Assembly (NCBI GenBank): GCA_021613335.1
Contig: JAJTWR010000044.1
Coordinates: 2,562,001 to 2,626,000, forward strand
Direction of reading: 5' to 3'
Source of the DNA: Whitmania pigra
Taxonomy: Eukaryota; Annelida; Clitellata; Hirudinida; Haemopidae
DNA: 64,000 nucleotides
Numbering within the stretch: position 1 is the first letter of the stretch; the number at the start of each line of letters is the position of its first letter. The translations under genes and the position numbers were made by a program. Of the stretch, positions 1,366-55,100 are shown in pieces. The notes below the pieces were generated by a model. It saw only the letters and a list, made by a program, of their open reading frames with translations. It was not told the DNA's origin and searched no databases.

Positions 1366-4290
1366 GGAGTGCCCCCGTCATCAAACGTTTCGGCCCAAAC
1401 TCCTGACGTTCTCGAGGGGTGGGCCACACCCGTTGATCAGGTGGGTTCGCGACGACCTTTGCGCATCGATCCCATATAATGCAAACTGAGCGTTATAATT
1501 TCTTTGAAGCGACCGCCGTCACTTAGAAATATACGCTCACCGAACGCGCGCATATATTGCCTCAAACGTTCAATCGCGTTTTTACGTCATTTGCGAACGC
1601 GCGCGTCAACATCTCAACAACCAAACCGCGATCACTATTCTTAGCAACGCTTACGGCCTCTCATCTCCCAAATCCAACACGATGCTGCGTCTGCAGCCTC
1701 CGACATTTTTATCATAGCCCTAGTTCTTTCCCGGCTCGACAAACCTATTTGAGGAGGAACGTGTCGGCTGACTAACCAGCTAAACATCTCGCCCCAACTT
1801 CAATGGGCATCAGCGTTATCCGAAACCCGCTCACCTCTAGATCTTTCGCTAGCTCAAAGTATTTGTCTTCTTTCAGCACATTACTTACTTCGATCCTATC
1901 TTCCCACGGAACAGTCAACTCTATTAAAATGAGAGCGCCTGACGACGACGATGCGAGAACAACATCCGGCCTCCTGCCGCTATTCCTAAGCAGCTGGGGA
2001 TATTGTCTCAAGCCTTCCAGGTCGGCTGCGAAAGTCCAATCATTAGCTTCTACAAGAATGTCTCTCCTCGGAGGGAGTCTATTTTTCTTACAGGGTAGTG
2101 AAAAGCCCTCTCGCTTCTACCACTTCCTTTAAGACCTTACCGTGTACCGACCATTGTCGAGGGCATATTCGCAACTTGAGAGCACATGATGAAGTGTCTC
2201 GAAGCCTCCACAGAGCTCACATTTACAATCTTCCGTCAAACCTCATCTTCGCAAATTGTCCTTAGAGGGAAGTTGGTCATAAATCGATCTTATCAGAAAG
2301 GCCAGACGGTATGGAGACATTCTCCATATCTCGTTCCAACCGATGGAACGTTAAACCACGTCTTCCCATGCGGTCCATCTACCCTGCTGTGCCTGCTGCA
2401 CTGCCTTAATGACTCGATCTCTTTCCAAATCCCTCCTCATCTCCTGAATAATAAGCCTTGCCCTAACCGCAGGGCAAGACTCAGACCATTTTGCGAAGTG
2501 GTTCCACCCATCAGCCGGACGACCCGACTGAATAGGACCTCGCACTTCTTCGAAAGTCAGTTCCGCAACTGACTTATCGATTTCATCCTGTGCTGAGAAC
2601 TTTCTTTTAGTTCTTAACAGTGGTCTAACTTCGCGGATCCTGATGTCTGCAGAGTTATTCAACATCCACTGCGTTCTTATTTTAGAGACCTCATACTTTT
2701 CCACCAGGGAACGAAGAGGTAACCTTAACTTCGAGCTCTTACTGTAGAGGGCAACAGATGACAACCCTGGAGGTAGCCCAAGCCACGATCTGATGTGTCT
2801 GCTAACTTTCCTCTCTAATCCTTCGACTGTGGGCAAACCGATCTCTTAAATCGTCAATGGCCACAGCAGCCTTGGGAAAAGCACAAACTGGAACAACCAC
2901 ACCTTAAACCTTCCCTGCAATGGTGCCTCTCCCATTGCCTTCAGACCCACAACAGCCTGTTCGACAGTGCAGCTCTCTTGGCTCCTATCGTTCAGCGAAT
3001 CATTAAACACTCGGCCTAGGCTCTTAACCGGTTCCTCGGTAACTGTAGGAACCCGTTGACCCGCTACAACAAACGAGATGTCGCTGCAGACTTTTCCTTT
3101 AACAAGGGCAAGACTTCTCGACTTTGCCATTTTTAAAAGCCATTCGACACCACTCAAGAAGGCCATTGAACTTGTTCAAAGTTTTCTGAACTGCCGGTCT
3201 CCTATTCATTACTAGGGTGGTGTCATGCATAAACGCTTTCACCGAAGGCATATAGAGACCCTTACCTAAATGCGCCTCTAGAACATTAGACCCGGCTGCG
3301 TTGAGCATAAGTTGCATCGCCAGTACGAAAAGGGGTGGTGATATTGCGCACCCCATTGCAATTCCCACCTCCAAAGGAACCCACTTAGTCGTGTATGTCT
3401 TGGTTGAGAACCTCATCATAAACCCGTCAAAATACGTCTGAATAATTCGAATTACGTGACGCGGTACATGATGAATCTCCAACGTTTTCCATATGAGTTG
3501 GTGTGATACCGACCCGTACGCATTCGCCAAGTCGAGCCACACAACGTACAAACTCAGGCGGCGCCTCTTGGCTCTTTCAATAGCCTCCCAAATCAAGGAG
3601 GAGTGCTCTATGCAACCAGGCACGCCTGGAACACCTCCCTTCTGAATCGATGTATCAACGTACTTTTTGGACAAAACATACTCAGTGAGTCTCGATGCAA
3701 TCAAAGAGAAAAATATTTTCCCTTCTACATTCAACAGCGAAATAGGTCTGAATTGATTTAGGCGAATGGAGTCCCGTTCCTTTGGTATATAGACGCCTTC
3801 TGCGACTCTCCCCTCATCATCAACACAGCCTGACTGCCAAGCTCTTTCGATGAGGGAGTGCAGCAAGTACAGCACCTTAGGGCATCTTTTATACAAAAAG
3901 TAGGGAATTCCATTGGGGCCCGGCGCCGAACGGTTCCTAGCTTTCCTAATAACTCGCCTCACTTCCACAATCGACGGAGATGTCAAGCTAAAAACACTGG
4001 TAGGGAGAGGCACCACTGGGATGTCTTGTCTCACAGGAAGGGGAATGTGACGAAGAGAATCACGATACGTATTAGTAAGGTGCTCTTCCAATTCGTCTTT
4101 ACCTACACGAAACTCACCAGACTTCGGAGGGTCGAGTAATGCTTTCCCATATCTGTAAGGATCACTGAAAAACTTTCTGTGAGCTCTCCTCCTCTCATAG
4201 TTTTTTTTGCCTAATACACTCAGAACAAGTGACGCCGAGAGAGGGGCAGATGGGGTCACTGCCAGGGGGGCCGCATCTGTAAGGGGGTCC
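1366..4290 (-). mobile_element. RLE-type non-LTR retrotransposon, copy 1, 5'-truncated
   Basis: On the minus strand the order is reverse transcriptase, a connecting domain, a CCHC zinc motif and a PD...E endonuclease, then a 3' untranslated stretch. This order is that of non-LTR elements with a restriction-like endonuclease (R2/NeSL/R4-type clades). The 3' end is placed at about 1366 by comparison with the second copy: both copies share a 'cccccgtc.tcaaacg.ttc.gccc' block there (1370 and 24198) and a 'taatttctttg' block about 110-200 bp inwards. The 5' end near 4290 is uncertain; the N-terminal zinc fingers expected in full-length members are absent. It sits inside gypsy-like gag sequence, so it is the younger insertion. 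Confidence 0.75.
1772..4259 (-). pseudogene. RT-CCHC-RLE polyprotein remnant, copy 1
   Basis: Reading on the minus strand: 4259-3099 gives the RT fingers and palm (RSAPGPNGIPYFLYKR; motif A VVWLDLANAYGSVSH; VGIAMGCAISPPLF; motif C region KAFMHDTTLV). A frame change near 3130 leads to 3166-2846 and another to 2836-2351 (SWLGLPPGLSSVAL, SKIRTQWML). The CCHC motif CELCGGFETLHHVLSSC lies near 2215-2165, and the endonuclease near 2011-1772 (RRPDVVLASSSSGALILIE, then LTVPWEDRIE). PD followed about 14 residues later by E fits the RLE catalytic pattern. The motif C reads F-M-H-D where two acidic residues are expected. Frame changes plus that substitution indicate a dead copy. Confidence 0.78.
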
Positions 4291-6866: not shown

Positions 6867-8165
6867 ATGGCTCTACATGGTTCATACACTCGAGAAGAAC
6901 TTCTGTCTCTTCTCCCCCACTCAATAGAAGGCTTGAAAGTCAGCAGAGCGGTGAGAAAAATGTTATTTTCTCATAAAGTAAGGAGCTCTCGACGAGTTCG
7001 TTCTACAAAGTTACAACTTCTAAGCCAAACCAATTTGAAACTTGGCCTACTTAATTCAAGATCGGCTGTTAAAAAGGCCGCCCTCATTAAAGACAGCATG
7101 CATGATGGGGCGTTTGACGTCTTCGTTTTGACTGAAACTTGGATACCGTCCGACGCCCCTGGATGCATCATGCACAGTATCGCTCCTGACAGCTTCATCA
7201 CCGTTCATCAACACCGTGGATCTTCAAACGACAAGCGCGGAGGTGGCATAGCTGTCATTCACCGTCATGAATTGAAGTCCACCAACATCGTATCTCCTGC
7301 TCATGCTGAATTCGAAGGCCTCCATCTCAAGTTCAACAATCGCAAGACATCCTTCATCATATCATCCTTATATCGTCCACCTGGCCCCGTCACGTCATCT
7401 TTCTTAAAAGAGTTTGAAGACCTCATCGAGTTTATTTTTTCCCACAACCTACCCTTCATCATTTGTGGAGACTTCAACGCCGCTGGTTCAGGTACCATCA
7501 TTGATGAACATCTAGAAAAATTGATCGACTCCCATGGACTCCTCCAAAATGTAACTTCTCCAACTCACTCCAAAGGCCACACGCTAGATCTGCTTATCAC
7601 ACGATAGCCTCGTCTCAAGTATAGAAATAAAGGAAGTCACCTACTCTGATCATCATCTCATCTCCTGCAATATCTCCGTTGACAAACCTCCCCCTTCCAC
7701 CCGAATCATTCATCGCCGTAGCCTCAGAAGAATCGACTTGGACGTTTTTGAGGAAGATTTTCTTCGCCTTTCTGAAGAACTCCTAATCAGCTATCTCGAC
7801 ACTGACGGCTTCGCCACACAGGTCCATAAATCTCTAGAGGAGCTCCTCGACAGACACGCCCCAATCAGGAAGTTTTCCATTCGTGTCGGTCACCACCCTA
7901 ATTACCAGCTCTCTCATGAAGCAATCGAGGCAAAGAAAAACTGCCGGCGCTTGGAACGTCGCTATCTTCGTCAACGCAATGACGTCGCCAGGCAACTCTA
8001 CAAGTCTGCCAAGGAAACAGCCAAGATTGCAATCCTAAACTCAAGGGCCTCCTCCATCAAGGAAGAACTCAAGTCTGATGTAAATCCCCGTTCCATGTGG
8101 CGCTCTCTTCACAAATTGCTTCACACCCGTCCTCCTCAATATGGTGGTAGGCTCTTCCAGCCCAT
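6867..8165 (+). pseudogene. CR1/Jockey-like non-LTR element: AP-endonuclease and linker, no RT
   Basis: The frame 6867-7607 carries an exonuclease-endonuclease-phosphatase fold: LKLGLLNSRSAVKKAALI, FDVFVLTETW, RGGGIAVIHR, ISSLYRPPG, IICGDFNA and HTLDLLITR. These correspond to the N, E, Y, GDFN and H catalytic landmarks of LINE endonucleases. A one- or two-base frame change near 7605 interrupts it; the sense continues in another frame through SDHHLISCNISV and then 7738-8150, the endonuclease-RT linker (RRLERRYLRQRNDVARQLY). It never reaches the RT, because at about 8170 the sequence becomes gypsy pol. Confidence 0.8.
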
Positions 8166-9930
8166 GGTCATGACCTCTGCACATGGTTCCAAAATTTTCA
8201 GGGGACTGGAGGCCATGCGGGGATTACAGAGCACTGAATGCACGGACGGTTCCGGACAGATACCCCATTCCTCACCTACACGATTTCACAAATGGTCTGA
8301 CCAACGCACAGATCTTTTCAAGAATCGATCTCGTCCGAGCCTACCACCACATACCCATTGCGGAGGAGGACATACCCAAGACCGCCATCACTACACCGTT
8401 CGTCGATGGAGGAGCATTTCGGACATCTGGAGCAAGTGCTGAAGAGGTTCACCGATTTCCACCTCACGGTGAACATGGACAAATGTGAATTTGCGGTCAC
8501 GTCTACAACATTTCTGGGACACTCTGTGAGTTCGGACGGCATACAGCCACTTCCGGACAATGTCAAGGCCATCACAGTACAAGCAACCGGAGACGCTTAC
8601 ACAGCTACGACGTTTCGTGGGTCTGGTGAACTTCTACAGGAGGTTCATCCCACACTGCGCCGACATGCTCGCTCCTTTGACCAGCATGTTCAACAAGCAG
8701 AACTCGAAGAGCAAGGCAGCAGTGTCCCTGAACCCTGTCCAGTTGCAAGCATTCCACAAAATCAAAGATGCTGCGCAGTCCGCCACCTGTCTCGCATTCT
8801 TGGGCAAGGACAGCCACCTGCAACTCCTCACAGACGCTTCCGACGATGCAGCTGGAGCGGTCCTGGAACAGGTACAAGGTGGCCTCACTACACCGGTGGC
8901 GTTTTTCTCCAAGAAGTTCAGCCCGACGGAGACGCGGTACAGCACGTTCGGCAGGGAACTGTTGGCGATGTACCTGGCCGTGAAGCACTTCCAACACCTA
9001 AAAGGAAGGTCGTCAATTTACAATCTACACGGACCACAGGCCGCTCACATTCGCTTACAAGAGCGGATCCAGGCGGTACTCGCCCAGAGAAATACGGCAT
9101 CTGGATGTCCTCAGTCAGTTTGCAGCTGACATCAGGCACATCAAGGGAGACCAGAATGTCGTGGCAGATGCCTTGTCGCGCACCGATGTCAACGCCGTCG
9201 CAACCATCGATCTGCAAGAGGTAGCCGCACACCAAGCTGCAGAGACCCAGCTCCAGATCGACATGCCATCCCTGGAGATCATTGAGGTCCCACTACCCTC
9301 CAGCCACGGCAACATCTTCGTCGACGTCTCAACAGGAGTGCACAGACCGATCGTCCCAGAGAAGCTGCGTCACAAGGTATTTCTGAGCCTACACTCTTTA
9401 TCACACCCAGGTGCCCGTGCAACGTCAAAACTGGTGAGACTCGTCTGGCCAAACATGGACAAGGACATCAGAGCATGGTGCCGAGAGTGTCTGGCGTGCC
9501 AGAAGAGCACATCCATTTGGACCTGGTGGGACCACTTCCATCATCGGAGGGACGCACACACACATCCTCACATGCGTGGATCGATTCACAAGATGGCCCA
9601 TGGCTATACCCCTTTCCGACACCTCAACGGAAGCCACCGTCAAGAATTTCATGCTCTCATGGATTTCCAACTTTGGATTGCCGGAAACCATCACCACGGA
9701 CAGGGGTAGCCAATTTTCCTCACATATGTTTCATTAGTGGTGCAAGTTGTTAGGCATCCGCCACGTAAAAACAACGGCCTACCATCCTGCTGCTAACGGA
9801 ATGGTGGAACGTTTCCACCGTCAACTCAAGGCATCACTCATCGCACAGAACGCCACCAATACCTGGACAGATCTCTTACCCATGGCTCTTCTGGGGATCC
9901 GGGCAACGTTCGGGCTGGTTCGCCAGCTTG
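8166..9930 (+). pseudogene. Ty3/gypsy pol (RT, RNase H, integrase), frameshifted with a deletion
   Basis: Segments in order: RT fingers at 8172-8397 ([43 protein letters not shown]); RT thumb from about 8402 in a different frame ([26 protein letters not shown]); connection and RNase H at 8600-9050 (RRFVGLVNFYRRFIP, LTDASDDAAGAVLEQ, FGRELLAMYLAVKHF); ADALSRT at 9164; integrase zinc region (SHPGARATSKLVRLVWP, CRECLACQKS) and integrase core remnants (HLDLVGPLPS; TAYHPAANGMVERFHRQLK at 9776-9832). Several frame changes are needed. The RT segment carrying the conserved LPFG and YxDD motifs is missing between TTPF and MEEHF. No protease or gag is attached upstream. Confidence 0.85.
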
Positions 9931-11953: not shown

Positions 11954-12013
<60 letters not shown>

Positions 12014-12324
12014 GATAATGATAATGATAATGATAATGATAATGATAATGATAATGATAATGATAATGATAATGATAATGATAATGATAATGATAATGAT
12101 AATGATAATGATAATGATAATGATAATGATAATGATAATGATAATGATAATGATAATGATAATGATAATGATAATGATAATGATAATGATAATGATAATG
12201 ATAATGATAATGATAATGATAATGATATGATAATGATAATGATAATGATAATGATAATGATAATGATAATGATAATGATAATGATAATGATAATGATAAT
12301 GATAATGATAATGATAATGATATG

Positions 12325-12403
<79 letters not shown>

Positions 12404-12418
12404 TAATAATCACCATCA
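11954..12418. repeat. GATAAT hexanucleotide microsatellite flanked by AAT repeats
   Basis: An AAT run (11954-11987) leads into about 410 bp of nearly pure GATAAT units, with two phase slips at 12225-12230 and 12320-12324 (atgatatgataat) and a further AAT block near 12350-12408, ending in ATC/ACC units. All long reading frames here (poly-ND, poly-MI, poly-HY, poly-SL) are products of the repeat and not genes. Confidence 0.97.
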
Positions 12419-14220
12419 TCACCATCGATATACAATCGAAAATTGCTTTCAGAAACAAATGAAACCAACATCGACTAGATTTATGCACTTATAAGTATTG
12501 TGTGATGCTGTATTTATATATAATAATAATTATTTAATTATTTGTTTAGAGTCCTTTGCGTAACTAAGATGATTTTGACTTTTGATTTTAGTGCTACCAA
12601 ATACAGATATAAATAAATAGTAAACCGTACATTAGGAGTACTTAACGCTGGAGGCTATATGTATATATGTAAAAAGTTTTCTTAACATAATTAACATATA
12701 CATATTTATTCATTTTACTTAGTAATTAATAACATCATAATTTATTTCAAATGTTTAAAGTACCTAAAACAATTCTTGAAATTTCTTAATTTCATAACTA
12801 GGCTCTGATATAAAAAATTTAGAAGTTAATTAATTCATGGAAGCAGTTCTCGGAGCTGGACCTGAGAAGTGATGAATCTGTTTCAACAACCACCAGTGCA
12901 TCTCGTGGCAGCGGTATGAAGATCTCGAGTTTAATATATTCTACTTGAAGCACTTGTGTTAATCAGGCAACAATGAACGAGTCATAATAAACAGCAGACA
13001 TAAATTCCAAACCGCTGACAAGGAACACTCGCCTTCGTAAAGACCCTGCAAAATTTACGTGCCACCTGCCAACACATTTCAAATATCATTTCATCCCCGT
13101 TGTTTGTCCTGTGTTCCAAATCATAATGCCCCAATTTAAGCAATGAATTTTCAGTTAAAGGATTGCTGCGATGACAGAATCATGTTCTCGCGACTGAAGT
13201 AAATTTCAAATCCGTTCCATGTTTCCCAGTTATTATAAGCTCCAGTATTTGTTTCTAAAATGAGTTGGCACAGCACCATTCTGGTCACTAATTGCTTCAC
13301 TACATCTGTCATTTCTTCCAGACCGAGCCAACTTGAAATGGTTTAGAAAAACTTACCAACATGTAATCTCTTTGCGATTTGTAGCCTGTTCAATCAATAA
13401 TGATTAGTGATGCACTTGATATTTGGTTCGCGCTTTTACTTTCTTAATTGAGTTTAAGCAACAATCAATCCACTTAAAATAATTCATCCCATAAAAATAA
13501 AAAAAGATTTTTTTTAAATCTCTGATATTTTCCAGATACTTATGGCCAAATGGTGAGATGAGAATGATGAGATGTAATTAAATGTAAAAAGAAGCTTCAA
13601 TCACTTTTGCACGTCACATGTTGCTTGTTGCAGCTGTAGAGATTTGAAAAGCAACTTCGATGTTTTGCAGTTTTAATCAAGGTCATCTTCATTGGAAAGC
13701 CAAAGCCGACATGGAATTATGTCCTCAGAGATCAGATAAGATGGACAAAAAGTTCACGAATTCACTCATGCAAGTAATTTCACTTCACGCACCCATAATT
13801 TCGAAATTATTGCGGGTTTTAAAAACAAATTCGTGGATGTACCAGAATGTCTGCAGTCTAAAATTCGACCATCTAATCCGCTTCCGACAAAAAAAAATCA
13901 TCTGTTCTAGCAGAAAGCCCTTTCTTCATCCATCCTGCTTTAAAATTCATTTTCAAAAACACTGTGATTTCCACAGCAGGGTTCTGTGTGTTCCCGGCGA
14001 CAATGGAGCAGATGTTGTCAATGGGTCATTAATACACAGCTCTTCATAAATAGCTCTTCATAGCGGTCTGCACACCACAGGACGTCAGAAGGCAGTAGGG
14101 AGGTTCGTGCATATATAATTCCACGTGTCCACTCCAAGTCATCATCACTCGAAGAGTCCCCTGTGATTATCATGCCACAAAATCTCAGATCATGTCACGA
14201 TTTCGCGAAGCCTTTTCCAA
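12419..14220. other. Spacer downstream of the ephrin gene
   Basis: AT-rich sequence beyond the ephrin polyadenylation signal. A 129-codon plus-strand frame at 13660-14049 shows no recognised domain, signal peptide or spliced partner. I checked the minus strand of 13960-14100 for an alternative ephrin tail and found only short frames. Confidence 0.45.
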
Positions 14221-14226
14221 TTTATT
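14221..14226 (-). terminator. Polyadenylation signal of the ephrin gene
   Basis: TTTATT on the plus strand, AATAAA on the minus strand, lies 40 bp past the ephrin stop codon. This implies a very short 3' untranslated region. Confidence 0.55.
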
Positions 14227-14265
14227 TACAATTGTTCAAAAATAATAAAGGATTTGTTATAAAAA

Positions 14266-17200
14266 TTATAACAAAATTAAACACCAGTTACAACTGCAAG
14301 CTAATAAAGAAAGTATCACAGTCGTTAAGAATATTTGAAAAGCGTTTTTCAATGAAGCTGAGGTCCCAGTGCCCTGAAATTGCTTGGAGTTTGTCTGAGT
14401 TTGCTGAAGCGTATTTACCGAGTACGTGTGACTGCTCGACTTTCTGACTGGCTTTGATGTGCTTTTTTCTTCAAAAATGTTTAAACATTTCAAATAAAAT
14501 TATGGAATTCAATCTATTGAAATAATTGAATATCTAACCGGTTGTTGTGATCTGGTTAGGAAAAAGATTTGGCTTCGAATAAATATCATCTTGCCCTGAA
14601 CTTCTGTTTGGTTTTTGTGGCTCAGTATTTATTACGCTCGCTAGAAATATTAAATAATCATACGAATTTGAGGCTTTTATAAACAATCAGAGGAAGTAAA
14701 AGTTATGAAGAAAATAAACAAACGTTGAATGTAGAAGGATAGTTTCATGTTTTGCGTTAGACAGGCACCATGAACTCTATTGCTTAAACCATCCATTCTT
14801 CCAGTGGAAGTCGCTGAAAAGATTTTTTTTAGAAAAAAATGAGTTTTAAAATTTGGCAAGGACGAATGTTATTGTCGACTCCATTCTTTCAGACTTTGCA
14901 AACATTTCGCAAGCTTGATGTTGACACGGCTGGTGTAAGACAGCAATGTAAGTCATTCTTAATGCGCCAATTAAGTTTAATCAAAGATTGAGGAATTTCT
15001 TTGATTGTAGACAAGGAGCTCCAATTAGAATCTCCTAGTTTAAGTTAACATCAATTTACATTTGCAAATAGCTCACTCATAATGTAGTAAGTTTGTCCCT
15101 CTTTGTACTCAGGACTGTTAGGAATGGGCTGGAAAGACAAAAACCTCAGAGTGTACCTCCGCCTACTTAAAGGACTGCTGCAGTTTAAGAGCATGTAACG
15201 GAGATCACGAAGGTCACACTTTTCATACTCATCCTTGGACACCTGGTTTTAAGGAAATACTTTCAGTAAATATGGTGTTAAAATGTAGAAAAATCGGTTA
15301 ATAAATAATATTGCATGAAAGTGCATGAATACAACTAGGTGTATGAATGTATATGAATACAACTATGTATATGAATGTGTATGAATACAACTATGTGTAT
15401 GAATACAACCTGGTATATAATGTAAGTCTCCATTGGACTAGAGTCTTGCTTTTCATAATTAGGACACACTAAGTCTACGTGATATTCAAGCTTGGCTTGG
15501 ATGGGCTCGGGGCTCGTGCTGGATTTAAATCTGCAAAGGAAAGCGTAATCATCATCATCGCCGCTACCGCTGCCGGCATCGTCATCATAATTAACATGGC
15601 ATTGATGCCACCATTACTAGGTCGTCCAAAGCGCTACTAATGGATTGTCAATGTTATTCGTGAACTGGTTTTGGGTGGTCAGTAGCTGTTGCTATAAACG
15701 TTTCTAACGAGGCCAAGGACATAGGTATACTGATGTGTCATGCCATTGTTAGGCGTGACGTCATTTGTTACTACAATCTGGTGTTCTTCGTCATCCTTAA
15801 TCAATAATGTTAGAGTGCAGGTGGCATTTTAAATGCATAAACATTAAATGCAGCATTTTTCACCTTTTATTGAACAAAGAGTCTATAATAGACATTATCA
15901 AACTCCGAATGAAAATGTTCCATAATTTCAAATTAAGCATAAAAGAAGTTGAAGTCGTTATTTTCCGACAAACAGAGATTTACATTTTCAAGTGTTTCTT
16001 ATCGCCTTTTTACACAACGAGGGTGGCTAAATCCAGGAAAATCAAAGCAGAAAACTTTGGAAATTCTTCAGATCTCATGTCTGGAATGTTTCGGCATTAG
16101 TCTTATTTTTAAATGACTCTATTTTCTTGGGTTTAAAACTAATAATAAAAATAATTCTCCATTACGCAAGGATTTATTTTTTTAATGTGAATATTTTCCG
16201 TTTTTTGCTCAATGAATTGTGTAATGCATACAAAAATGTGGCGAATTTGAAACGTGTCGAGTGAAAAAGTAGTTAGAGGATAAACGGGAATATGCAGAGA
16301 AGCGACGTGTGATTGACAAGCATAATGTACGTTTGAAGAATGGATGCCAGCCGAAAATCCAATTTGGAGGAGTAGACAAAATTGCCTTAAGCTCTCCTTT
16401 ATGTTTGGCTAAAAATTTTCTACTTGTGGATAACAGCTCGTGTCACGTTGTACGTGGTTTTGCGTCGGTGAAACACTTATTTTCTGATGCACCGCCCTGT
16501 CAGCTGTGCCAGCCAAAACACACGCTTCATCTGGTTAATTCAGCCCCTAGATTAAAAAATAATTCAAACTCATTTTTATGGAGAGAAACTATAACGCGAT
16601 CTGTCAAGTTAATTATTTTTTTTTAATAATTAGTCATTAAAGGCTTCATTCTACAAATGGAATTCACGAGGTTTTGTTTGCATTACGTCACTAGAGTTTT
16701 ATTGCGTCACACAATCCGAAATTGTCGGCCGAGTTGAAATAGCTTGAAACTTGGTAGTGCATCCTCATCAGAAACGTTTTGCAGAAGTAGGAAGGAGGAG
16801 GGTGGTATGGATAGTAAGATGGGAAAGAAGCGTTAAGTGAGTCAAAATTGAGGGAGAATTAATGTCAGGACATAAAATTCGATCAAAGTCAAATCTTGTT
16901 ACTCACGTTCTCAGAGAATGCGAAAGCATCAAAGTAGCAGAATCCCCACAAAGACAGGGGATTACTTGGAAGTGAATGAACGAGAATATATCGACGTTCG
17001 GTAATAAGCACTATGTTTCACTTGGCCATAAAACTCGTTTTGCTCACCAGTCAGGTGATAAAACGACTCAATCGCTCTCAATCGAAGGCAACGTTCGCTC
17101 GAGCAAAATAGAAAATGGCCGAGTTAAAATTAAGTGCGAATTATATTATGATTTATACTATGAATTATACTATGAATTATATTATGAATTATATTATGAT

Positions 17201-18649
17201 TTATATTATGAATTATATTATGATTTATACTATAAATTATATTATGAATTATATTATGATTTATACTATGAATTATACTATGAATTATATTATGAATTAT
17301 ATTATGATTTATATTATGAATTATATTATGATTTATACTATAAATTATATTATGAATTATATTATGATTTATACTATGAATTATATTATGATTTATACTA
17401 TGAATTATATTATGATTTATACTATGAATTATATTATGATTTATACTATGAATTATATTATGATTTATACTATGAATTATATTATGATTTATACTATGAA
17501 TTATATTATGATTTAGCGGAGATAAGAAGCAGATGTTTTCGTTGCACACATCGACCCCATGCCGAAGCTCGTATCGTTTCAAATTCTCGCATAAAATGAA
17601 ATTGATTTGCAAAAATATGGAACGTATTGAAATGCGACCATTTTTCGTGGAGATCGTGATTGATGAAGCACTCGCAGTTGCTAGTGAGCATTGGAGGAGA
17701 AGTTCCCGTCTACCGTTCCGATGCACTTCAACTTTCACCGACATCCAAAATAAATCAAAATAAACACCAAAATAAATCAAGTTGAAATAGTGTCGGTTTT
17801 AGCAGACGTGACAAATATTGAGAGAGCCACGATGCAGCACTTTGACAGGTTGTCAAACGAGAAGCTATTGATGATTCAATAATTGGCTGCTTCAATCCGT
17901 CCACATTCTCTTCATTTTTTAAGAACTTCATCGACACAATGAGACTCAGATCTTGATTCAAGCCTGAACTCGTTTTAATGTTCATCGAGTTCAAAACACT
18001 GCCGTCTGCTTAAATTAGCAGCCAGACGAGGAAGCTTTCAGCGACTAGTGCCAATACATTCATTGGAGGAAGTGACCAATAATCGTCGGTCATTTATTGC
18101 TAACCAGGTTTGCTAATTGGAACGAAATGACGTGTATGTTGATCATCAAATAAAACATCAATAAAACGATAATTAGTTGTGACATTGAATAACATAATTT
18201 ATGCCGGTGATTTGTAATAACGATATTCATATTACGCAACTCCTGTAAACAAATGAGCCTTTGATGATGTGTTTCAGTAGCATTTACAAACAGAGCTCCT
18301 CATCAATCATAATCGTTTATTACGACAGAAAGCTAAATGTACACTCATGGGCGAGTGTTATGAGTAAAAACAGGATGTGTTATTCTGACTTTATAATGAT
18401 TAATGTTCTAGGTGCACTGCTGCTATATTGATCGCCTCTCGACATCAGTTGTGGCGGCAGAAGACCAGAAGATAAACATCGGACATTCAGGGCACGTAAT
18501 AATGGCTAATACGATTATGCCTTTGAAATGGCACGTTAAACGAATGAAGATACTCACATAGTATTCGTGGAGTTCCAGTAGATAGGAGCAAGTCTTATTT
18601 GTAGTGAGATGTTCATCAGGCAAGCCACAATAGTGAAACAGCTCTTCAT
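14266..18649 (-). CDS. EFN: Ephrin, GPI-anchor type, five exons, complete
   Basis: Cell-surface ligand of Eph receptor tyrosine kinases. Exons in transcript order: 18558-18649, 15410-15530, 15077-15242, 14724-14813, 14266-14468; 672 nt, 223 residues plus stop, phases chaining through GT-AG introns. Residues 1-20 are a signal peptide (MKSCFTIVACLMNISLQIRL). Mature protein starts APIYWNST, the ephrin 'WNS.N' start with an N-glycosylation site at N26. The receptor-binding cupredoxin-like domain follows: KLEYHVDLVCPNYE, ETYIIYQVSKDEYEKC, MLLNCSSP, YTLRFLSFQPIPN, GQTYYIM, TSTGRMDGLSNRV. The four conserved cysteines are C53, C80, C92 and C144. The tail ends in about 22 hydrophobic residues with no cytoplasmic domain or PDZ motif, so GPI anchoring is inferred. 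Exon 1 also opens in another frame, which hides it. Confidence 0.93.
15320..15409. repeat. Short tandem repeat abutting the ephrin exon 2 splice donor
   Basis: Imperfect units of 'tatgaatacaacta.gtg' type repeat about five times. The last unit (tatgaatacaac) is the start of ephrin intron 2 read on the minus strand (donor gttgta at 15409-15404). Confidence 0.8.
17139..17515. repeat. 12/24-bp AT-rich minisatellite in ephrin intron 1
   Basis: About 31 copies of a 12-bp unit, tatgaattata(t/c) alternating with tatgatttata(t/c). The right half is a regular 24-bp dimer. The left half holds a 9-unit (108-bp) block that occurs twice in succession. The reading frame through it encodes LYYE/LYYD/LYYK units, and the minus strand NHNIIHSI-type units; both are by-products of a repeat period divisible by three. 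Confidence 0.95.
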
Positions 18650-21600
18650 AAAATTCCACATTTCATGGTCAGGAGAAAATAAAACTCTTTACTTTCCTCT
18701 TTTGACGAGATACGAAATCTGAAATCTTCTAATCCGAATACAACAGACTCTCAACTCTTGAAAGCTGGCTCCATGGCACACACGCGTACAAACGGCAACA
18801 GGCTTTTTATAGAGACCGAAGCCTTCTATTGTTCGTGTACGACTCGTGTTCGCTCGCTACAGCCACATACATCTCGATCAATTGTAATCTCGATGTTCTT
18901 CTAAAACAAATGACCCTGGCAAGATAGATTTGACTGAAAATTTCATTCATAATCTGCAAGATGACTTTATAAAGACCAAGTTTGTCGGCATCATTTTGAA
19001 CGTTCGAGCTGTTGAGAGCGAATAGCATGCTACCTAGCTAACAGTTGATGCATCTGTATGCCTCTTCGGAGTATTTTTGCACCTTTGCACGTATCTTTCC
19101 TATTAATCTTTGGCTCGCGAGAAATAACCGAATCTCGTCCAAGAATTCAATGTAACCGGAATTCAATGTATACCCAACGAAGGTAGAAATTGCCAACTCA
19201 TCCGTCAGCAGGGCTTTGAATGCAACAGTAAATACTCGAATCCTTCCTGCCTGCAAAGTTCGATCTGAGATCTTTGAAATGCCCTGCGATGGTTTCATTA
19301 AATTTAAATTGCATCCACTAAGCAAGTCGGCACTCGGCTCAAGAATTTATGCAAATGAAAACGCATCTATTCAAAACGTGCTCAAAAGGTTCATTTTTTT
19401 AATTGAAAAGATATCGTAAACTGCAGAGTACTTCGTGTTGAGGATGAATTATTTTAATGTTTTTAATTCTATCATCAACATGCTATTTTCTGAACATATT
19501 ACCAATTGCATAAAGTCGCAGTTTTAATGCTCAGATTTGTCGCGGTGTTAATGTGATGCGGTAAATTATGAAAGAAATATTCTGCCACCCCTCGTTAATC
19601 CCCAAATTACCGCCATGTTTCTCTTTTTTTCTCCTCAGAAAAGAATGTTTTCAGTAATTACTTGATTAAGCCTATTTCGTGCATCGTTGCGTCATTAACG
19701 AATCGAATTCTTGAAATAAACAAATCTCCTTTGTTTGCCATATCTCCGAAAGAGGCCTCAGACTAAAAATTCTGAGTCTTCATTATCGATTCAATCTAAA
19801 TCATGGAGATGTTGCTAAGGTTCAGCGTATCCATCCCTAAACGACTGTTACGAATCGGCACATCGAATCGTGTCAATGAGAGAGTGTGGCAGAAAAATCA
19901 ACTCTTGATCGAAGGGAATTTAGCATTAAAAACATGCAATTAATCATCAGGCGAATGAAACCAACTTCGTCGAAAGAATGGATGTCACGAGAGTGAAGTC
20001 AGCATGAAGATGACCCAAAAGTTCAATGTTAACTCTGACGATCCTTTTGTGCACCACAAAAGTTTGTTCATTGTTCCTTCTGACAATCCTCTGAGGTGCC
20101 TGAGAATTTGATGTCTCGAATAGGAATGAACAATCAGCCAACGAAAAGCTGAATAGTGCCGACAGCATTAGCGGGACATCGCCTAAAGAGACCAAAGCCA
20201 TGAAAAGATTTTGTTAATGTTTAAGAATTCATTCAAAGAACCCTAAAGGAGCAATTAGAAGATCTTGTGAGAAACTTTTACGGTCCAGTTGTCTTCAAAC
20301 ATTCGACCAAAGAAGAAGTGAGCGGCAGGAACAGTTGTTGAGGATGTTTCTTCAGAGACAGCACTTTGTAGACACGGCAAAGCTTTTAAAAACCTCACAT
20401 ATTTTCGTTTTTTCTAAAGCGTGTGAAAACCGATTTTAGAGTCTTTTTTTCACCTGGAAATCATCACCACCAGTTATAAGTTACATATTGGATGTCAAAA
20501 TGAGAAATAAAATTCATCTCACGTACATTGTTCCTGTAAAATGTCAGCTTATCAACGCATGTTACTTATCATTTTCGATAAATACTTTTAAAATTAGATG
20601 TTTATTTAAATTATTCGACAGCCCGAACGGCCGGTTCCCACCACAAGAAAGAAGTGAGCTTTCGTAAGAGTTTCTGCCAGTTCATGCCTAATGACCTTTG
20701 ATTAAATTCTTGCACTCAGAAGGAATTCTTTACACATTCGATTAGAAGTTGATTTACTGTATTCACTTTTCAGAAAATTATATGGTAAATCAAAGAAATA
20801 TAATTTGTTAAAACATTGCCGTGGATTAACTAATTATTTTATTGCAGTCAAAAAAGTGCTTTATTGGTGCGAAAGTTTGATAAAGAAGATTTATGAGGAC
20901 ACAAATTAAATTACATGGAATCCATGTGTTAACTGCTATAATAAATATCTGTCTTATTAAATATATTCAGATAATTATTAAATACGTTCAGGTAGATACT
21001 AGCGACTCTAAGTAGCTTGTTCAGGTGCATGATGACGGCTCTAAAATGATTTCAAGTTATAAATTTCTTCATTAAATTACGTGAGATAAATGAGCATCAG
21101 AACTAATTACTACGTAATAACAACGTTTAATTGGGCAGTAAAATAACTCAATTACATAATAATAGGAAACTTCAAATTCTTGTATGGCTTGGTTGCACAT
21201 ATTTCTGCTCCAAAGTCATTTAACATTTTTGTATCTTCTCGCAGGGGATTTCTACTCGCACCTTTGGACGACAACCCATAACGATAACCATCAACAGGTA
21301 AAACAAGCAGGACTTCTCATTTCAATGGATGTGAAATATTAAAAACCTATCGGGTCCGCAAAGCAAGTATTCAATCGATGGCCAATAATGCTAACAATAA
21401 AAATGGTGACACACCAATCCATTCATTCATTGACTTCCTTGCACAGGATGAATTTGATTCATATTACTTAAGTCTTAAGTTTAATATTTTTGATATTTCA
21501 AGATATTACTTTTATCACATTTTTTTTTATTTCGATAGAAAATGGGTTGAAATATGTATGTTTGCGGTTAAGCTCTATGTTGACTATGTGATATGAAATT

Positions 21601-24190: not shown

Positions 24191-26760
24191 CTCAGGAGTT
24201 TCCCCCGTCTTCAAACGCTTCAGCCCTTTGAATCTCCTTACATTTACGGGGGCGGGCATTATATTTATTTATAATTACAACAATAACATCATGATATTTA
24301 TTATAGAAATAGAGAATGTCGATCGCCTCTACCCCAGTTGCCTACAGCAGTCATGAAAGTTCTCAGTGGCTTCTTCACACAGTGTATTCAATATACGTAA
24401 ACTGGGCCTTGTAATTTCTTTGTAGCGGCAGCCGGAGATAGAAAAAAGCGAGACTCGACCACGGGCCTTTGCGCGACCGCGTTTTGGGTCGTTTCTCCGG
24501 ACAATACCGCGTCTCTCGGCCAATGATTTGGCGCTGTCGTTCGGTGGATCATTCACACCAGAAACAGACGGCTTTCCTGAAGTGGCCTCTTAAGACTTCT
24601 CCTGGCTCTTCATGTGCCAGACCCAGAATGATGCCGCTTCTGCGGTCTCAGACATCTAGTCTTTGTTCTCTCTCGACTAGACCATCCAAACTTGGCGAGG
24701 AAAGCTTAAGTCGACCTGCCGACCACGCCTCTTGTGCCAACCTCGATAGGGAAGAGGTTTTTCCGATATCCTTTCGCTTCCAGGTCCATCGACAGATTTG
24801 CATACTTATCCATTTTGAGCACGTTGCTGCATTTAAACCTGTTTTTTCACGGCACTGTCAGCTCCACCAGAATGATGGCATCCGTCGAAGGCGACACGAG
24901 CACCAAATCTGGCTTCTTGCCACTTTCTATCAGCCCCTGGGGTAGTGCCTCATCTCTTCTAAGTCGGCTGCGACAGTCCAGTCGTTTGCCTCTGCAAGAA
25001 TGTCTCGCCTGGGAGTTTGACATATCTTTTGCAGAGGCGTGCGAAGCCCTCGCGAAAGAAATAAATCTTTCGATACTTTGCAATCGTGCGCTTTAGAGAC
25101 TGCTGCTTTTGCTGTCTCATACATTTCATTCCACTATCCCACCTTTTCGACGCATCCTACAAAGATCATAAATTGCCCCAGGACTGGAAAGTCGCCCTGG
25201 TAACACCCATCCACAAGAAAATTTAGACATCATCTACTTGGACTTCCGTAAGGCCTTTGACTCTGTCTCTCACACAAAACTAATGCTCAAAATACGCACA
25301 TATGGTGTAAATGACAATATGAAAGGATGGCTTGAGGATTTTCTATACTTGAGGTCACAAAAAGTGAGCATCAATGGATGTATCTCAGAAGAGGTTGCTG
25401 TCACTAGCGGAGTTCCTCAGGGGAGTGTTCTCGGGCCAACCCTATTTTTGCTATATATAAACGACCTTCCCGAAATATTCAAAAGCTCCGACACCATTTG
25501 TATGCTCTTTGCTGACGATGTAAAACTTTACAACACTTCTTCTCTCCAGTTGCAACGATCTCTTGACAAAATAGTAGAATGGAGTGAGAGATGGCAATTA
25601 CAGCTTGCTCCCGACAAATGTCAGATACTCTCGCTGATTGGTTACAACAAAAATTTCAACCCATGTGAATATTGGATCAATAACCACAGACTGTCGAGAG
25701 TTGGCACGATCCGAGATCTGGGAGTGCTTATTGATTCCTCCCTCAAATTCGTCCATCACATCGACAACATCACCAGGAAAGCAGCCATAATATCCAAATT
25801 GATTCTTGCACCCAGATATCCTTAAAAAAGCATTTTGTACTTACGTTAGACCAATATTGGAATACAGCTCTCCCGTTTGGAATCCTCATAAAAAACTACT
25901 CATTGACAGAATAGAGAAAATTCAAAAAAGGTACACAAAGGCCATCCCACACTTGCCCATTATCCATATCTACAAAGACTAAAGACACTTAAACTACCAA
26001 CATTGGAAAAGCGTCGACTACTGGCCGATCTCACTCTCTGTTACAAGCTACAAAATGGCTTTATCCACAGCAACATTTCCAATACTCTTATTAGATCAAC
26101 TTACACTAGGACCAGAGGCCATAACCACAAACTCAGGACAAGAAAATCCCGATGTGAAATATCCAAACACTTTTTCTCTAACCGCATTGTCCGATCCTGG
26201 AACTCCCTGCCAGCTCCTATCGTCAATTTCTCAACAACAAACCGATTTAATTATGAAATCTGTAAACTAAATCTTAATCCCTACCTCAGATTCCAAGAAC
26301 TTTGAAAATTTATTACCTCCTATTAAACTTTTTCTCCTCGCTTTCGATTTCTCAAACCAGACCTGCCCGAGCGGTGATGAACTTAGTTTTCGCGTTTAAG
26401 TTTATTTTTCGATCGTGTTAGAGGCTTCGGCCCTTCGTTCGTGTCTTTAAATAAAAAAAAAATTCTCGAATGATCTGGTTATGTTGCCATTTGTACCGAC
26501 CGTTGGCAAGGGCATACGTGCAATTGCTGAGCACGTGATGCAGTGTCTCGTTTCCGCCGCAGAGCCGGCATTCGGTGTCTTCCACCAAACCCCACTTCAG
26601 TAGATTGGCCATGGAGGGCAACTGGTCGTATACCGACCTTATCGCGTAGGCAAATCGGTGCAGGGACATCTTCCACATATCGCTCTAGGCAAGGGATTTT
26701 TGCATCACCTCTTCCCACGTTGTCCACTCACTCTGCTGTGACTGCTGAACCGCCCTCGTG
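24191..26760 (-). mobile_element. RLE-type non-LTR retrotransposon, copy 2, split by a CR1-like insertion
   Basis: The minus strand encodes the CCHC region at 26678-26470 (CRLCGGNETLHHVLSNC then YALANGRYKWQHNQIIRE). After a 1.3-kb interruption come the segment MYETAKAAVSKAHDC and the endonuclease (TPRRDILAEANDWTVAADLE, KKPDLVLVSPSTDAIILVEL) down to about 24830. The 3' region shares blocks with copy 1. The upstream RT is absent, so this copy is 5'-truncated. It belongs to the same family as the copies at 1366-4290 and 31389-31661. Confidence 0.75.
25133..26461 (+). mobile_element. CR1/Jockey-like non-LTR retrotransposon, 5'-truncated, nested
   Basis: Coding sense begins at about 25139 (HLFDASYKDHKLPQDWKVAL, VTPIHKK). 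It then jumps to NLDIIYLDFRKAFDSVSH, so an internal stretch of RT is deleted at about 25217. RT motifs present: YLDFRKAFDSV (A), TSGVPQGSVLGP (B), CMLFADDVKLY (C, catalytic pair intact), RDLGVLIDSSLKF (thumb). Frame changes follow at about 25825 and 25980. The C-terminus 26003-26305 contains SKHFFSNRIVRSWNSLPAPI, typical of CR1/RTE-like tails. The element ends in an A-rich tail (26449-26462). It splits RLE copy 2; ATTC on both sides is a minimal target duplication. Confidence 0.8.
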
Positions 26761-32764: not shown

Positions 32765-33979
32765 TCAATAAGATGTCATTCCTCCTTTTTTAGAAATAAC
32801 ATCTATGCACTTATTTTTCATGGAGAAAATCAGTGTTTTGATGATGTTTTCATCCAAATTTCTCCAGGCACTCCAAATCGCTTCTTTCAAATAATTTTCT
32901 GTGTTATGTTGCTGTCCATTGCCATAAACTGATCTTAAAAGAAGGCCCCAGACATTTTCAATCATATTCAAGCCGGGTGAACACGCCGGCCAGTCCATCA
33001 CTTGAATGTTGGACTCCTGGAAATATGCTCTGGTTGCCTTGGAAACATGACTAGAGGCATTATCCTGCTGAAATTCATGTTGTTTTGTTTCAGCAAAAGG
33101 AAGGAGATGATCCTTGTGATAAAATAAAACGTTGTTTAATCAACAAACCAGTAGAAGCTCAACAACACAATGGCGACTAGAGAACAAAAAGCTTAGAACT
33201 CTAAACATGAAACAAAAAAAACTATATATATCTCCACAGCATGACTAGGTCACAACTAGAGAACATTAACATAATAAAAACATTGATGTCGCTATTCCAA
33301 CATCTTGAGCATTTTGATGTACTTCTGAGAGTCCTGCCTCCCTTTCAAAATCACCAGTTCAGTCCTCCCAAATGCTGAAATTCCTCCCCAGACCATCACA
33401 GAGCCTCCTCCGTGTTTTCTGCTATAACAAACCTCTCTTTCTTTTCTGAGATCATGCCAGTAGTATTTATAGCCGTCTGGCCCGTCAAGGTTGAATTTTT
33501 TTTTCTTCTGTGAAAATTACGCGTTCCCATGTTTCGTTGTAGCTGACCATCTCTTTGGCCCAGAAGAGGCGTTTTTTCTTGTGATGGACTTTCAACGCTG
33601 GAGCTCGCTTTCGCATTTCGTATCTCTGCTGTCTACTTGAATTAAGATAATTGCAGACTGTCCTAACATGGACATCCAAATCCAGCTTATTTTTTAGCTG
33701 TTTACACGAATATTCTCCCTGAATCTGATTCAAGAGTTTTTTCGGTCTTCTGCCCTTGTACTTCTTCCCATATGAGTCTGGATCATCCAAAAAACATTTG
33801 ATGACAGTTCTTGACCTATTCAACTCATTTGCAATTTTTTTTATTGAATAGTTTGCCTTCCCCAAGGCCTTAACTTGTCCTCTTTCTCCTTCTGTCAAAC
33901 CTGCTTTCTTTCCCGTGATGAAATGAATGTAAAAGGAAGTACCCAGGGACGGGGTCGAAAAAGCTTCCGATAAAATCAA
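32765..33979 (-). pseudogene. Tc1/mariner transposase remnant
   Basis: From 33979 down: the helix-turn-helix region (LTEGERGQVKALGKANYSIK, KIANELNRSRTVIKCFLDDP), a second HTH (LKNKLDLDVHVRTVCNYLN), and the first catalytic strand RVIFTEEKK. Tc1-like proteins usually have D in the 'FsDEskF' position; here it reads FTEEK. A frame change at the A-run (33495-33503) leads to NLDGPDGYKYYWHD, KHGGGSVMVWGGIS and QKYIKMLK. After the insertion come HLLPFAETKQHEFQQDNASS (second catalytic D) and MDWPACSPGLNMIENVWG (third catalytic E). The usual SPDLN has become SPGLN. Frame change and insertion make it non-functional. Confidence 0.85.
33117..33302 (-). mobile_element. Solo LTR-like insertion within the Tc1 transposase
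   Basis: On the minus strand the 186-bp insert starts TGTTGGAATAGCGAC and ends TTTTATTTTATCA, i.e. TG...CA. It contains a TATA-like gatatatatag and an AATAAA-like attaaac. TGTTGGAATA is a common start of Ty1/copia LTRs. Flanking 5-mers on the plus strand are ccttg (33112-33116) and tcttg (33303-33307), an imperfect target duplication. The transposase sense resumes exactly at both sides (QKYIKMLK / HLLPFAE). Confidence 0.6.
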
Positions 33980-52100: not shown

Positions 52101-55100
52101 ATCCCGTGAGTTACTGCCGGACTTGAAGAGGGTACGAGACCCTTGTTGTACTTGAGCTTCTGCCTGTAATCATCATTATCAACCTTCATGCCGGGCAAAG
52201 TTCCTGACTGGAAAACATTATCGGACTCCGATTCCCCTTTCCTCGGAACGATGACCAAATTCTGATTGACGTTGTCTAATGGTCTGTTGATGGGAAGAGA
52301 GATCTGTCAAAAGAAAAATAAATGAAAAAGTAAATAAAAACTTTCATCTGAAGTGCAACAAAATATGTCCCGCAAAATCATGGAAGCTACTATAGAATAT
52401 ATATAATTCAATACATAGATAGAATACTTACATACATATATAGATGCATACATAGATAGAATACATACCTCTTCTTTCTTTTCAAGGCCAATTGAATTTG
52501 AATCTCTCTTATTGCTCTCATAACCATTAAACTTCAAACGACCGCCATCTGGTCTTGTATTCTCCAAGTTCATCTGGTCTTTAGAAACCCTATGAATCTC
52601 AGATTTCTTTGGATCCGTCGATGATTCTGCATCCCTGGCAGAATCGGACACGATACTTCCAGCCGTTTTAACTGGATCACTATCAAAATGGGTTTCCTGG
52701 ATGAAAGAGTCGCCTTTTCTGGTCGGTTCCATAATTTGTGAAGTCGGTTTTTTCAAGCTGTCTCCGTGGTAGCTCTCTAATGGAATACCCTTCGCCTGAT
52801 CCTTGCCTGTAAGTAATTGAATGATCGTAGGTTAATCAAAATATGGCACACACCACACCGTACAACGACAAAAAAATAAAAATTCAATTTGAAGTTCAGT
52901 GAAATAACCATGGATCCAGTTGGCACTCTCTTGAACAGAAGTTCTCTCAGAAGGTGAAAAGCTTGTCCTGCCCATAGTTGCAGAGCTGAATTCATCCTTC
53001 AATAAATTCATAAATTATAGTTTGCAATGAACAGATACAGTCTCAACACTCGCTACCTTCACAGGACCAGAATCATCACCGAGTCCCCTCATGTCGCCAC
53101 CCATCATGTACAAGTAGGACTGCTCGTTCAAGCCATCATCTGCTCATGAGATCATTAAGTATAGTATTTTGAATACATTATTTGTGAATGATAACCAATG
53201 GTCAAATTAATTTGAATGTATTTAACTAAAAATGAAATCTAGGTTACCTGCAATACCTTTGTTACTTATTACTGAAATTACTTTTGCTATCAATATTAAT
53301 TTATACAATATTTTAATTCAACATTCTATAAAATACCTCTAAATAAATATCAAACATTATTACAATAATATAATATATAATTTAATTAGAATACCATGTA
53401 TAACATGATATAATTTAAATTAAATTAATTTAATATATTTTAATATCAACCTTTGTCCTCCTCTTCTTCATCTGACATAGGAACATCGTGCATGGTTTCA
53501 GGTTCGACAAGTTTGTACCTGTTGCTGACCTGATTCTGAGGTTGTGCAGATGTGACTCCTTTGAGCATCTCAACCACTGACAAATATCCAAGTCTTTCTG
53601 CAATCCAGAGCGGAGTTTGGCCATCCTGATAAAATGACGGAAACATCGACATCGCTCGTCGAGAAAGGAAATAAATTTCCAAACTACACTTACGGATGTG
53701 ATGCTGTTTGGATTTGCTTTGTGCCTGAGGAGCAACTGAGTGACAAGAACGTGACCCTGCTGAGCTGCTTGATGCAAAGGAGTGTGACCTGCCTGTGTCC
53801 AATTAACACCTTTATTAGCCTCGTTATAGTAGACCATGTTTCCTCACAAAATATAACAGTCTAGCCATAAAAAATTAAGCAAATGAAGACCTTGGTAATG
53901 GCTTCGACGTCGGCACCTTTCTTCAAAAGAAACTCGATCATGTTCAGTTTACCAAAGTGACAAGCAGTATGTAGCGGTGTGTACCCCGCCTGTAATTATA
54001 AATATTTGGCACATACATTACACTGTATTAGAATATGTTATAAATACATTACAAGTCGCAAGTCGACAAGGATAAGCTTTGGTGAGAATGAACGAGCGAA
54101 TGACACAATTAGCCATTGTTATTGTTATCACCATTAGGTAATTACAACACATTTGCAGACCTACAATGGATATCAGTGAAAAAATGCTCAAGAAATCATT
54201 CATCAAATTTATTGGTGATTATGAGGTTTGCCCCGAGATGTCAACAATAAAAATGTAAGTAAGAACACAAATTCCAATACTAGTTCTCAAAACACTTTTT
54301 TTGCAACCGTGTCGTCAAACTGTGGAGCTCCTTACCGGCTGATGTTGTAAACTCTACAACTCTGACTTGCTTCAACTCAGCCTTCAATTCGACAACTAAA
54401 CTTTAACCAATTCCTTAGATTTAAAGAGCTTTAGGATGACAACACTCGAGAAAACAAATTAATTTTTAAGCCTTTTTGTGTCCCTTTTTGTGGTCTAGCT
54501 CTGTTGCTCGGATATTTGTTTGTTTACATTTTGTTGCCTGGTCATGTAAGCGGTTAAAAGCCCTTTGACCTCGTGTGAATAAATAAATAAATCAATAAAA
54601 TTATTTTAATAATTTTTTAAAGTGGTTTCAGTCCAGAATATTTGTGAATAATGATGATGATGATGATGATGATAATAATAATAATAATAATAATGGTAAT
54701 GATGATAATAATGTTAATGAAACTGATAATGATGCTGATGACGATGATGACAATAATAATGATGGATTTGAATTTTTAGTAATATTTATAACTTTTTTGA
54801 AGATTTGGGACAAAAAAGAGCACCTTAAAGTACGAATAGAATACCTTAAAATACCATTATAGCACATTAAAATACAGATAGAATTCATTATAATACATGT
54901 ATAGCACATTAAAATACAGATAGAATTTATTAAAATACATGAATAACACATGAAAATCCCACCTTGGTCTGAGGATCGATTTCAGCCTGATGTTTCACGA
55001 GAACTTCTGCCACCGGGACGTGGTCTTCCTGAGCCGCAAGGTGCATCGCCGTCAAACCGTTCTTTGACTGGTGGTTGACCTTGGCCTTGCTTTCCAGCAA

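Follow-up and report, generated by a model that had tools for sequence, protein, structure and literature searches.

Does the locus at positions 14266–18649 of the window (the whole 64,000-nucleotide stretch of Whitmania pigra DNA analysed here) encode an intact ephrin (a signal on the cell surface that guides adjacent cells), and what, if anything, does the end of its product say about the division of ephrins into A and B classes? The initial annotation had proposed five short exons, joined in phase into 672 nt encoding 223 residues, and rebuilding the gene from the DNA returned the same numbers, with GT-AG boundaries at all four introns, no frameshift or internal stop, and an in-frame TAA ending at 14266 (Table 1). 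The ephrin gene that the window holds looks real and intact, though ordinary; the earlier observation is confirmed. None of the minus-strand open reading frames of at least 120 residues overlaps any of the five exons. An alternative in-frame ATG lies at 18661, four codons upstream of the exon 1 start (MWNF-MKSC...), and may be the real start of the reading frame. A shorter exon 4 near 14929–14895 was considered and dropped; the exon 4 given in Table 1 is upheld by the paralogues described below.

Table 1. Exons and 3' signal of the window ephrin gene (a slash marks the splice junction)
Feature	Position	Strand	Length and content
Exon 1	18558..18649	minus	92 nt; start codon, then a putative signal peptide (judged by eye) and IYWNSTNT; phase-2 donor TAT/gtgagt
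Exon 2	15410..15530	minus	121 nt; through core Cys 53 to ...YIIYQ
Exon 3	15077..15242	minus	166 nt; VSKDEYEKC..., Cys 80, Cys 92, G-H loop QPIPNSPEY, YYIM; phase-1 donor
Exon 4	14724..14813	minus	90 nt; TSTGRMDGLSNRVHGAC(144)LTQNMKLSFYIQ
Exon 5	14266..14468	minus	203 nt; a polar stalk rich in Ser/Thr, then the hydrophobic C-terminus and the TAA stop; putative GPI-attachment signal
AATAAA, possible polyadenylation signal	14221..14226	minus	40 nt past the stop codon

The profile search that had been proposed as a check on the model matched the ephrin domain far beyond chance: PF00812 aligned over profile positions 6–140 of 140 with residues 21–155, at 121.8 bits (cut-off 25; E 2.7e-35). The best solved relatives in the PDB are ephrin-B2 chains, with human ephrin-B2 at E 1.5e-23. 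The four core cysteines that had been named at the outset (C53, C80, C92 and C144) are present in the rebuilt protein, among nine cysteines in all, and align with those of all six human ephrins used. The WNST start is likewise there, at residues 25–28, and several of the human ephrins used for comparison share a WNS(T/S)N start. The N-terminus is hydrophobic by eye; a 19-residue hydropathy scan (cut 1.6) listed C-terminal windows only.

We applied the same profile to the whole assembly (178,173,256 bases in 381 contigs) and obtained five exon matches at three loci, namely, two on contig C274, two on contig C379 and one on C21, the contig of the window, where exon 3 scored 40.1 bits (E 4.0e-8). 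The start and end of exon 3 and the start of exon 4 are common to the window gene and both paralogues, as is the threonine codon that is split A/CG or A/CA across the intron after exon 3. P0121, a database protein that comes from a contig of 1,583 bases (source tag lgn) and that we take to be RNA-derived, is nearly identical to the C274 ephrin and thereby confirms the splicing of that paralogue: residues 51 to the end (343) map to C274, it has a counterpart of exon 4 with the same start, and its last exon was already among 14 hydrophobic-ended reading frames noted at C274 before this protein came to light. No match to residues 1–50 of P0121, corresponding to exon 1 of C274, turned up in 14.8 kb of upstream DNA. 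The exon 1/2 position is shared between the window gene and C274, as judged from the C274 acceptor together with P0121; the two genes do not share the 3' end of exon 4. The C274 locus (L014/L017/L018) is a second ephrin in its own right, which carries extra stalk exons downstream of exon 4 and finishes in a tail-less hydrophobic terminus.

The initial annotation had also described a hydrophobic C-terminus lacking a cytoplasmic tail, and this description holds: the best 15-residue hydropathy of the window ephrin (2.33) falls at residues 202–216, with seven residues after it, and the protein lacks the combination of transmembrane segment and cytoplasmic tail that defines the ephrin-B class. We compared this arrangement with that of 19 relatives (P0121–P0139, with the fragments P0140–P0142 left out) and with hand-picked vertebrate controls, in which 83 residues follow the best hydrophobic stretch in four of four ephrin-B proteins and 0–2 residues follow it in three of three ephrin-A proteins. 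In 18 of the 19 relatives the most hydrophobic stretch of the scan is C-terminal and is followed by 0–10 residues; the exception is P0134, a Helobdella gene model with 74 residues after the stretch. The ends of five relatives (P0121, P0124, P0125, P0127 and P0130) are weakly hydrophobic, with 15-residue means of 1.30–1.69 against at least 2.37 in the controls. Hydropathy and the similar endings of the relatives thus back the GPI-type end proposed earlier, and the C-terminus of the window ephrin is likely to be a GPI signal.

To which class does the Eph-binding domain belong? In a nine-row tree, a branch sets apart each of three groups: the three ephrins of this genome (85/91), three human B ephrins (98/97) and three human A ephrins (100/99). 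Human A and human B both stay whole in a 28-row tree and in a 25-row tree made from it by removing P0139, P0134 and P0133 (100/98 or better), and in these trees the window ephrin groups with annelid-type ephrins (85/91 and 93/88, respectively), where "annelid-type" denotes the clade containing the named annelids Capitella and Helobdella, its other rows being nameless. The deeper order depends on the tree: human A and B are joined (93/78) in the 28-row one, for which a long-branch warning was given, and B lies closer to the annelid-type and rotifer rows in the 25-row one. The trees thus place the gene inside neither human clade without fixing how A, B and annelid-type ephrins branch from one another. 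The spacing between the third and fourth core cysteines (C3-C4) is 52 in the three ephrins of this genome and in three of three human B ephrins, compared with 48–49 in three of three human A ephrins. It is also 52 in 13 of the 19 relatives (P0121–P0132 and P0134, although the fourth Cys of P0134 is not aligned), and in the remainder it is 53 (P0133), 54 (P0135–P0137), 49 (P0138) or 44 (P0139). The Eph-binding domain of the window ephrin therefore appears B-like (i.e., non-A) in its spacing and its best scores, yet the protein stands outside the human B clade too.

The GPI-type end invites a reading in which the protein is a true ephrin-A, orthologous to the vertebrate A type, such that the A/B split would be older than the protostome-deuterostome split. 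This we hold to be extremely unlikely, because human A forms one side of a 100/99 branch in three trees, with the window ephrin and its two paralogues outside it, the C3-C4 spacing is that of B, and neither the A-type insert (GPLKFSEKF) nor the short loop preceding Cys 4 is present. The phmmer bits against the window ephrin favour B (B2 87, B1 70, B3 65) over A (A1 54, A5 42, A2 36). Moreover, in the available text of PMC2405795 and PMC6993872, GPI anchors are described as having been gained or lost several times, and anchorage does not define ephrin class. The suggestion made at the outset that a GPI end in an invertebrate would help to date the A/B split consequently fails, given this decoupling of anchor and class and a binding domain with B-type spacing. 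The accessible text of PMC6993872 also describes GPI ephrins in molluscs, nematodes, hemichordates and cephalochordates, B-type domains with either anchor in non-vertebrate ephrins, and the appearance of class A ephrins in tunicates.

The tail-less end itself depends on exon 5, which has the weakest splice sites of the gene (donor AAC/gtttgt, acceptor ttgaag/AAA) and is a putative last exon, assigned by phase, position and resemblance. Those sites, and the additional stalk exons that C274 has beyond exon 4, would fit a transcript that runs instead to a transmembrane exon and a cytoplasmic tail, or through other stalk exons; we consider such a transcript quite unlikely, since exon 5 is in phase, gives a terminus like those of the relatives and is followed 40 nt on by AATAAA, and since, over the 6.7 kb downstream of exon 4, the six hydrophobic-ended reading frames listed comprise exon 5 itself, two simple repeats and three frames of 29–38 residues. 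It is also very unlikely that the window copy is decayed or silent, a pseudogene in the making. Its end branch is indeed longer than those of the other two paralogues (0.82 in the 28-row tree and 1.02 in the 25-row tree), and a protein-database search returned no transcript for it, the sole match to this copy itself covering exon 2, on a 3.4-Mb contig. That match, the 73-residue protein P0142, agrees with window exon 2 at 39 of 40 residues as against 13 of 28 in the intron-side reading, and the conservation of exon 2 while the flank drifted counts against decay, as do the unbroken reading frame, the canonical introns and the retention of all four cysteines. Compared as DNA with the whole genome, window positions 14200–15600 matched no second place.

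With the gene read as an intact ephrin of B-like domain and tail-less end, its closest named counterparts are two proteins filed as hypothetical, Capitella teleta CAPTEDRAFT_225002 (P0130) and Helobdella robusta HELRODRAFT_194703 (P0134), which resemble it in domain and in C3-C4 spacing of 52 (for P0134 with its fourth Cys not aligned) and have the loop IPNVPE. P0130 is 43% identical to the window ephrin over 62% of the query and has a tail-less, weakly hydrophobic end; the stalk of the window ephrin is shorter, and the Cys-Cys pair that follows MKL-xxx-V in P0130 is missing from the window ephrin. P0134, as modelled, has no hydrophobic end. The bdelloid rotifer Adineta vaga has a small tail-less ephrin with a hydrophobic end (I4U23_030163, P0135; 36% identical over 68% of the query), which differs from the window ephrin in belonging to a separate clade and in its loop, YPHLPE. 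Human ephrin-B2 shares the spacing of the binding domain and the segment TSTG...GL.N..G.C..MK, but the window ephrin has neither the transmembrane-plus-tail arrangement nor the YYKV end of vertebrate ephrin-B, and its G-H loop differs. The likeness to vertebrate ephrin-A (human ephrin-A1, -A2 and -A5) lies in the GPI-type C-terminus, whereas the domain falls outside the A clade, has no A-type insert and has a C3-C4 spacing of 52 rather than 48–49.

In vertebrates the G-H loop fills the Eph pocket. The motif IPNx(P/H/Q)E occupies this loop in all three ephrins of the genome and in 13 of the 19 relatives (P0121–P0132 and P0134), and in none of the six human sequences. P0135–P0138 (i.e., Adineta and its clade) have YPxxPE instead, P0139 differs, and P0133 has no such string. 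One possible, though doubtful, extension is that annelids have only tail-less GPI ephrins whose loop, unlike that of vertebrates, would give them an Eph interface of their own and no tail-based reverse signalling; on this reading the window gene would be the third leech ephrin, evolving fast and specialised for one partner among the three leech Ephs.

The initial annotation had proposed looking for an Eph receptor in the same genome, and at the level of ligand-binding domains this check came out positive: a genome search with the Eph ligand-binding domain (Ephrin_lbd, PF01404) matched five times, spread over the three loci C359, C33 and C283, whereas the EphA2_TM profile exceeded its cut-off at C359 only, with one match just under it on C324. 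Taking together what can be read directly from the DNA (the exon chain, the ephrin domain, the four core cysteines, the hydrophobic tail-less end and the Eph ligand-binding domains), we are highly confident that an intact gene is present, that its product is a small, putatively GPI-anchored ephrin whose Eph-binding domain is B-like (non-A), and that it belongs to the three ephrin loci found in this genome. Such a protein would be secreted, its C-terminal signal would be exchanged for a GPI anchor, and it would bind an Eph receptor tyrosine kinase on an adjacent cell through its G-H loop; judging from the family, this binding could then lead to contact-dependent forward signalling in repulsion, cell sorting or axon guidance. 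Because the window ephrin has no cytoplasmic tail, any reverse signal would need membrane partners.

The analysis yields a sound model of a leech-type ephrin gene, from a genome in which three ephrin loci stand beside three Eph ligand-binding loci and from a group used in work on neural development and regeneration. Its bearing on the history of ephrin classes is small, since published work already uses the binding domain and not the anchor. Neither "annelid" nor "leech" occurs in the available text of PMC6993872, and "ephrin" is absent from the leech genome papers PMC10887747, PMC8787918, PMC7303139 and PMC10111769. Our literature search, which covered mostly titles and the starts of abstracts, without subscription papers or supplements, found no paper describing leech ephrins (the match in PMC7317182 is to its reference list) and none on annelid GPI ephrins.

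Around the gene, the window averages 37% GC over sixteen 4-kb steps and contains two tandem arrays, an AT-rich 24-bp repeat of 15.8 copies within intron 1 of the ephrin gene (17138–17515) and a 6-bp unit (ATAATG) of 75.8 copies downstream of it (11955–12407). Retroelement pieces with reverse transcriptase, endonuclease, RNase H and integrase zinc-binding domains lie at 3099–4259 (minus strand) and at 6867–7607, 8560–9129, 9161–9709 and 25238–25825 (all plus strand). On the minus strand there are also the N-terminal part of a Tc3-type transposase (33485–33979) and an exon with ankyrin repeats (53430–53837).

Elsewhere in the assembly, a single short match exceeded the cut-off of the Hirudin profile (PF00713; 28.8 bits, profile positions 1–19 of 64), weak evidence for a leech when taken alone. 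Four open COX1 genes of bacterial type were found, at L011 (C115), L012 (C49) and L013 (C360), with surrounding GC of 0.59, 0.37 and 0.60, respectively, and on contig C47; the contigs that carry them are probably bacterial, from symbionts or contaminants. A homeobox search gave 150 scored matches (303 candidates), from which 30 loci were taken and 26 translated. Among these 26 are L028, with KLTGP after the homeodomain, the Lox2/Lox4-like L034, L038 and L039, and the Post2-like L036, which we take to mark the lophotrochozoan Lox5, Lox2/4 and Post2 genes. As genes of lophotrochozoan type they point to a leech and away from a tunicate or, as the bacterial-type COX1 genes had suggested, a sponge holobiont. 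The Hox-like loci are spread over several contigs. Identical printed translations were obtained for L026 and L027 (on opposite strands of C220, ∼51 kb apart) and for L048 and L049 (on C149 and C184), pairs that are perhaps recent duplicates or unmerged haplotypes.
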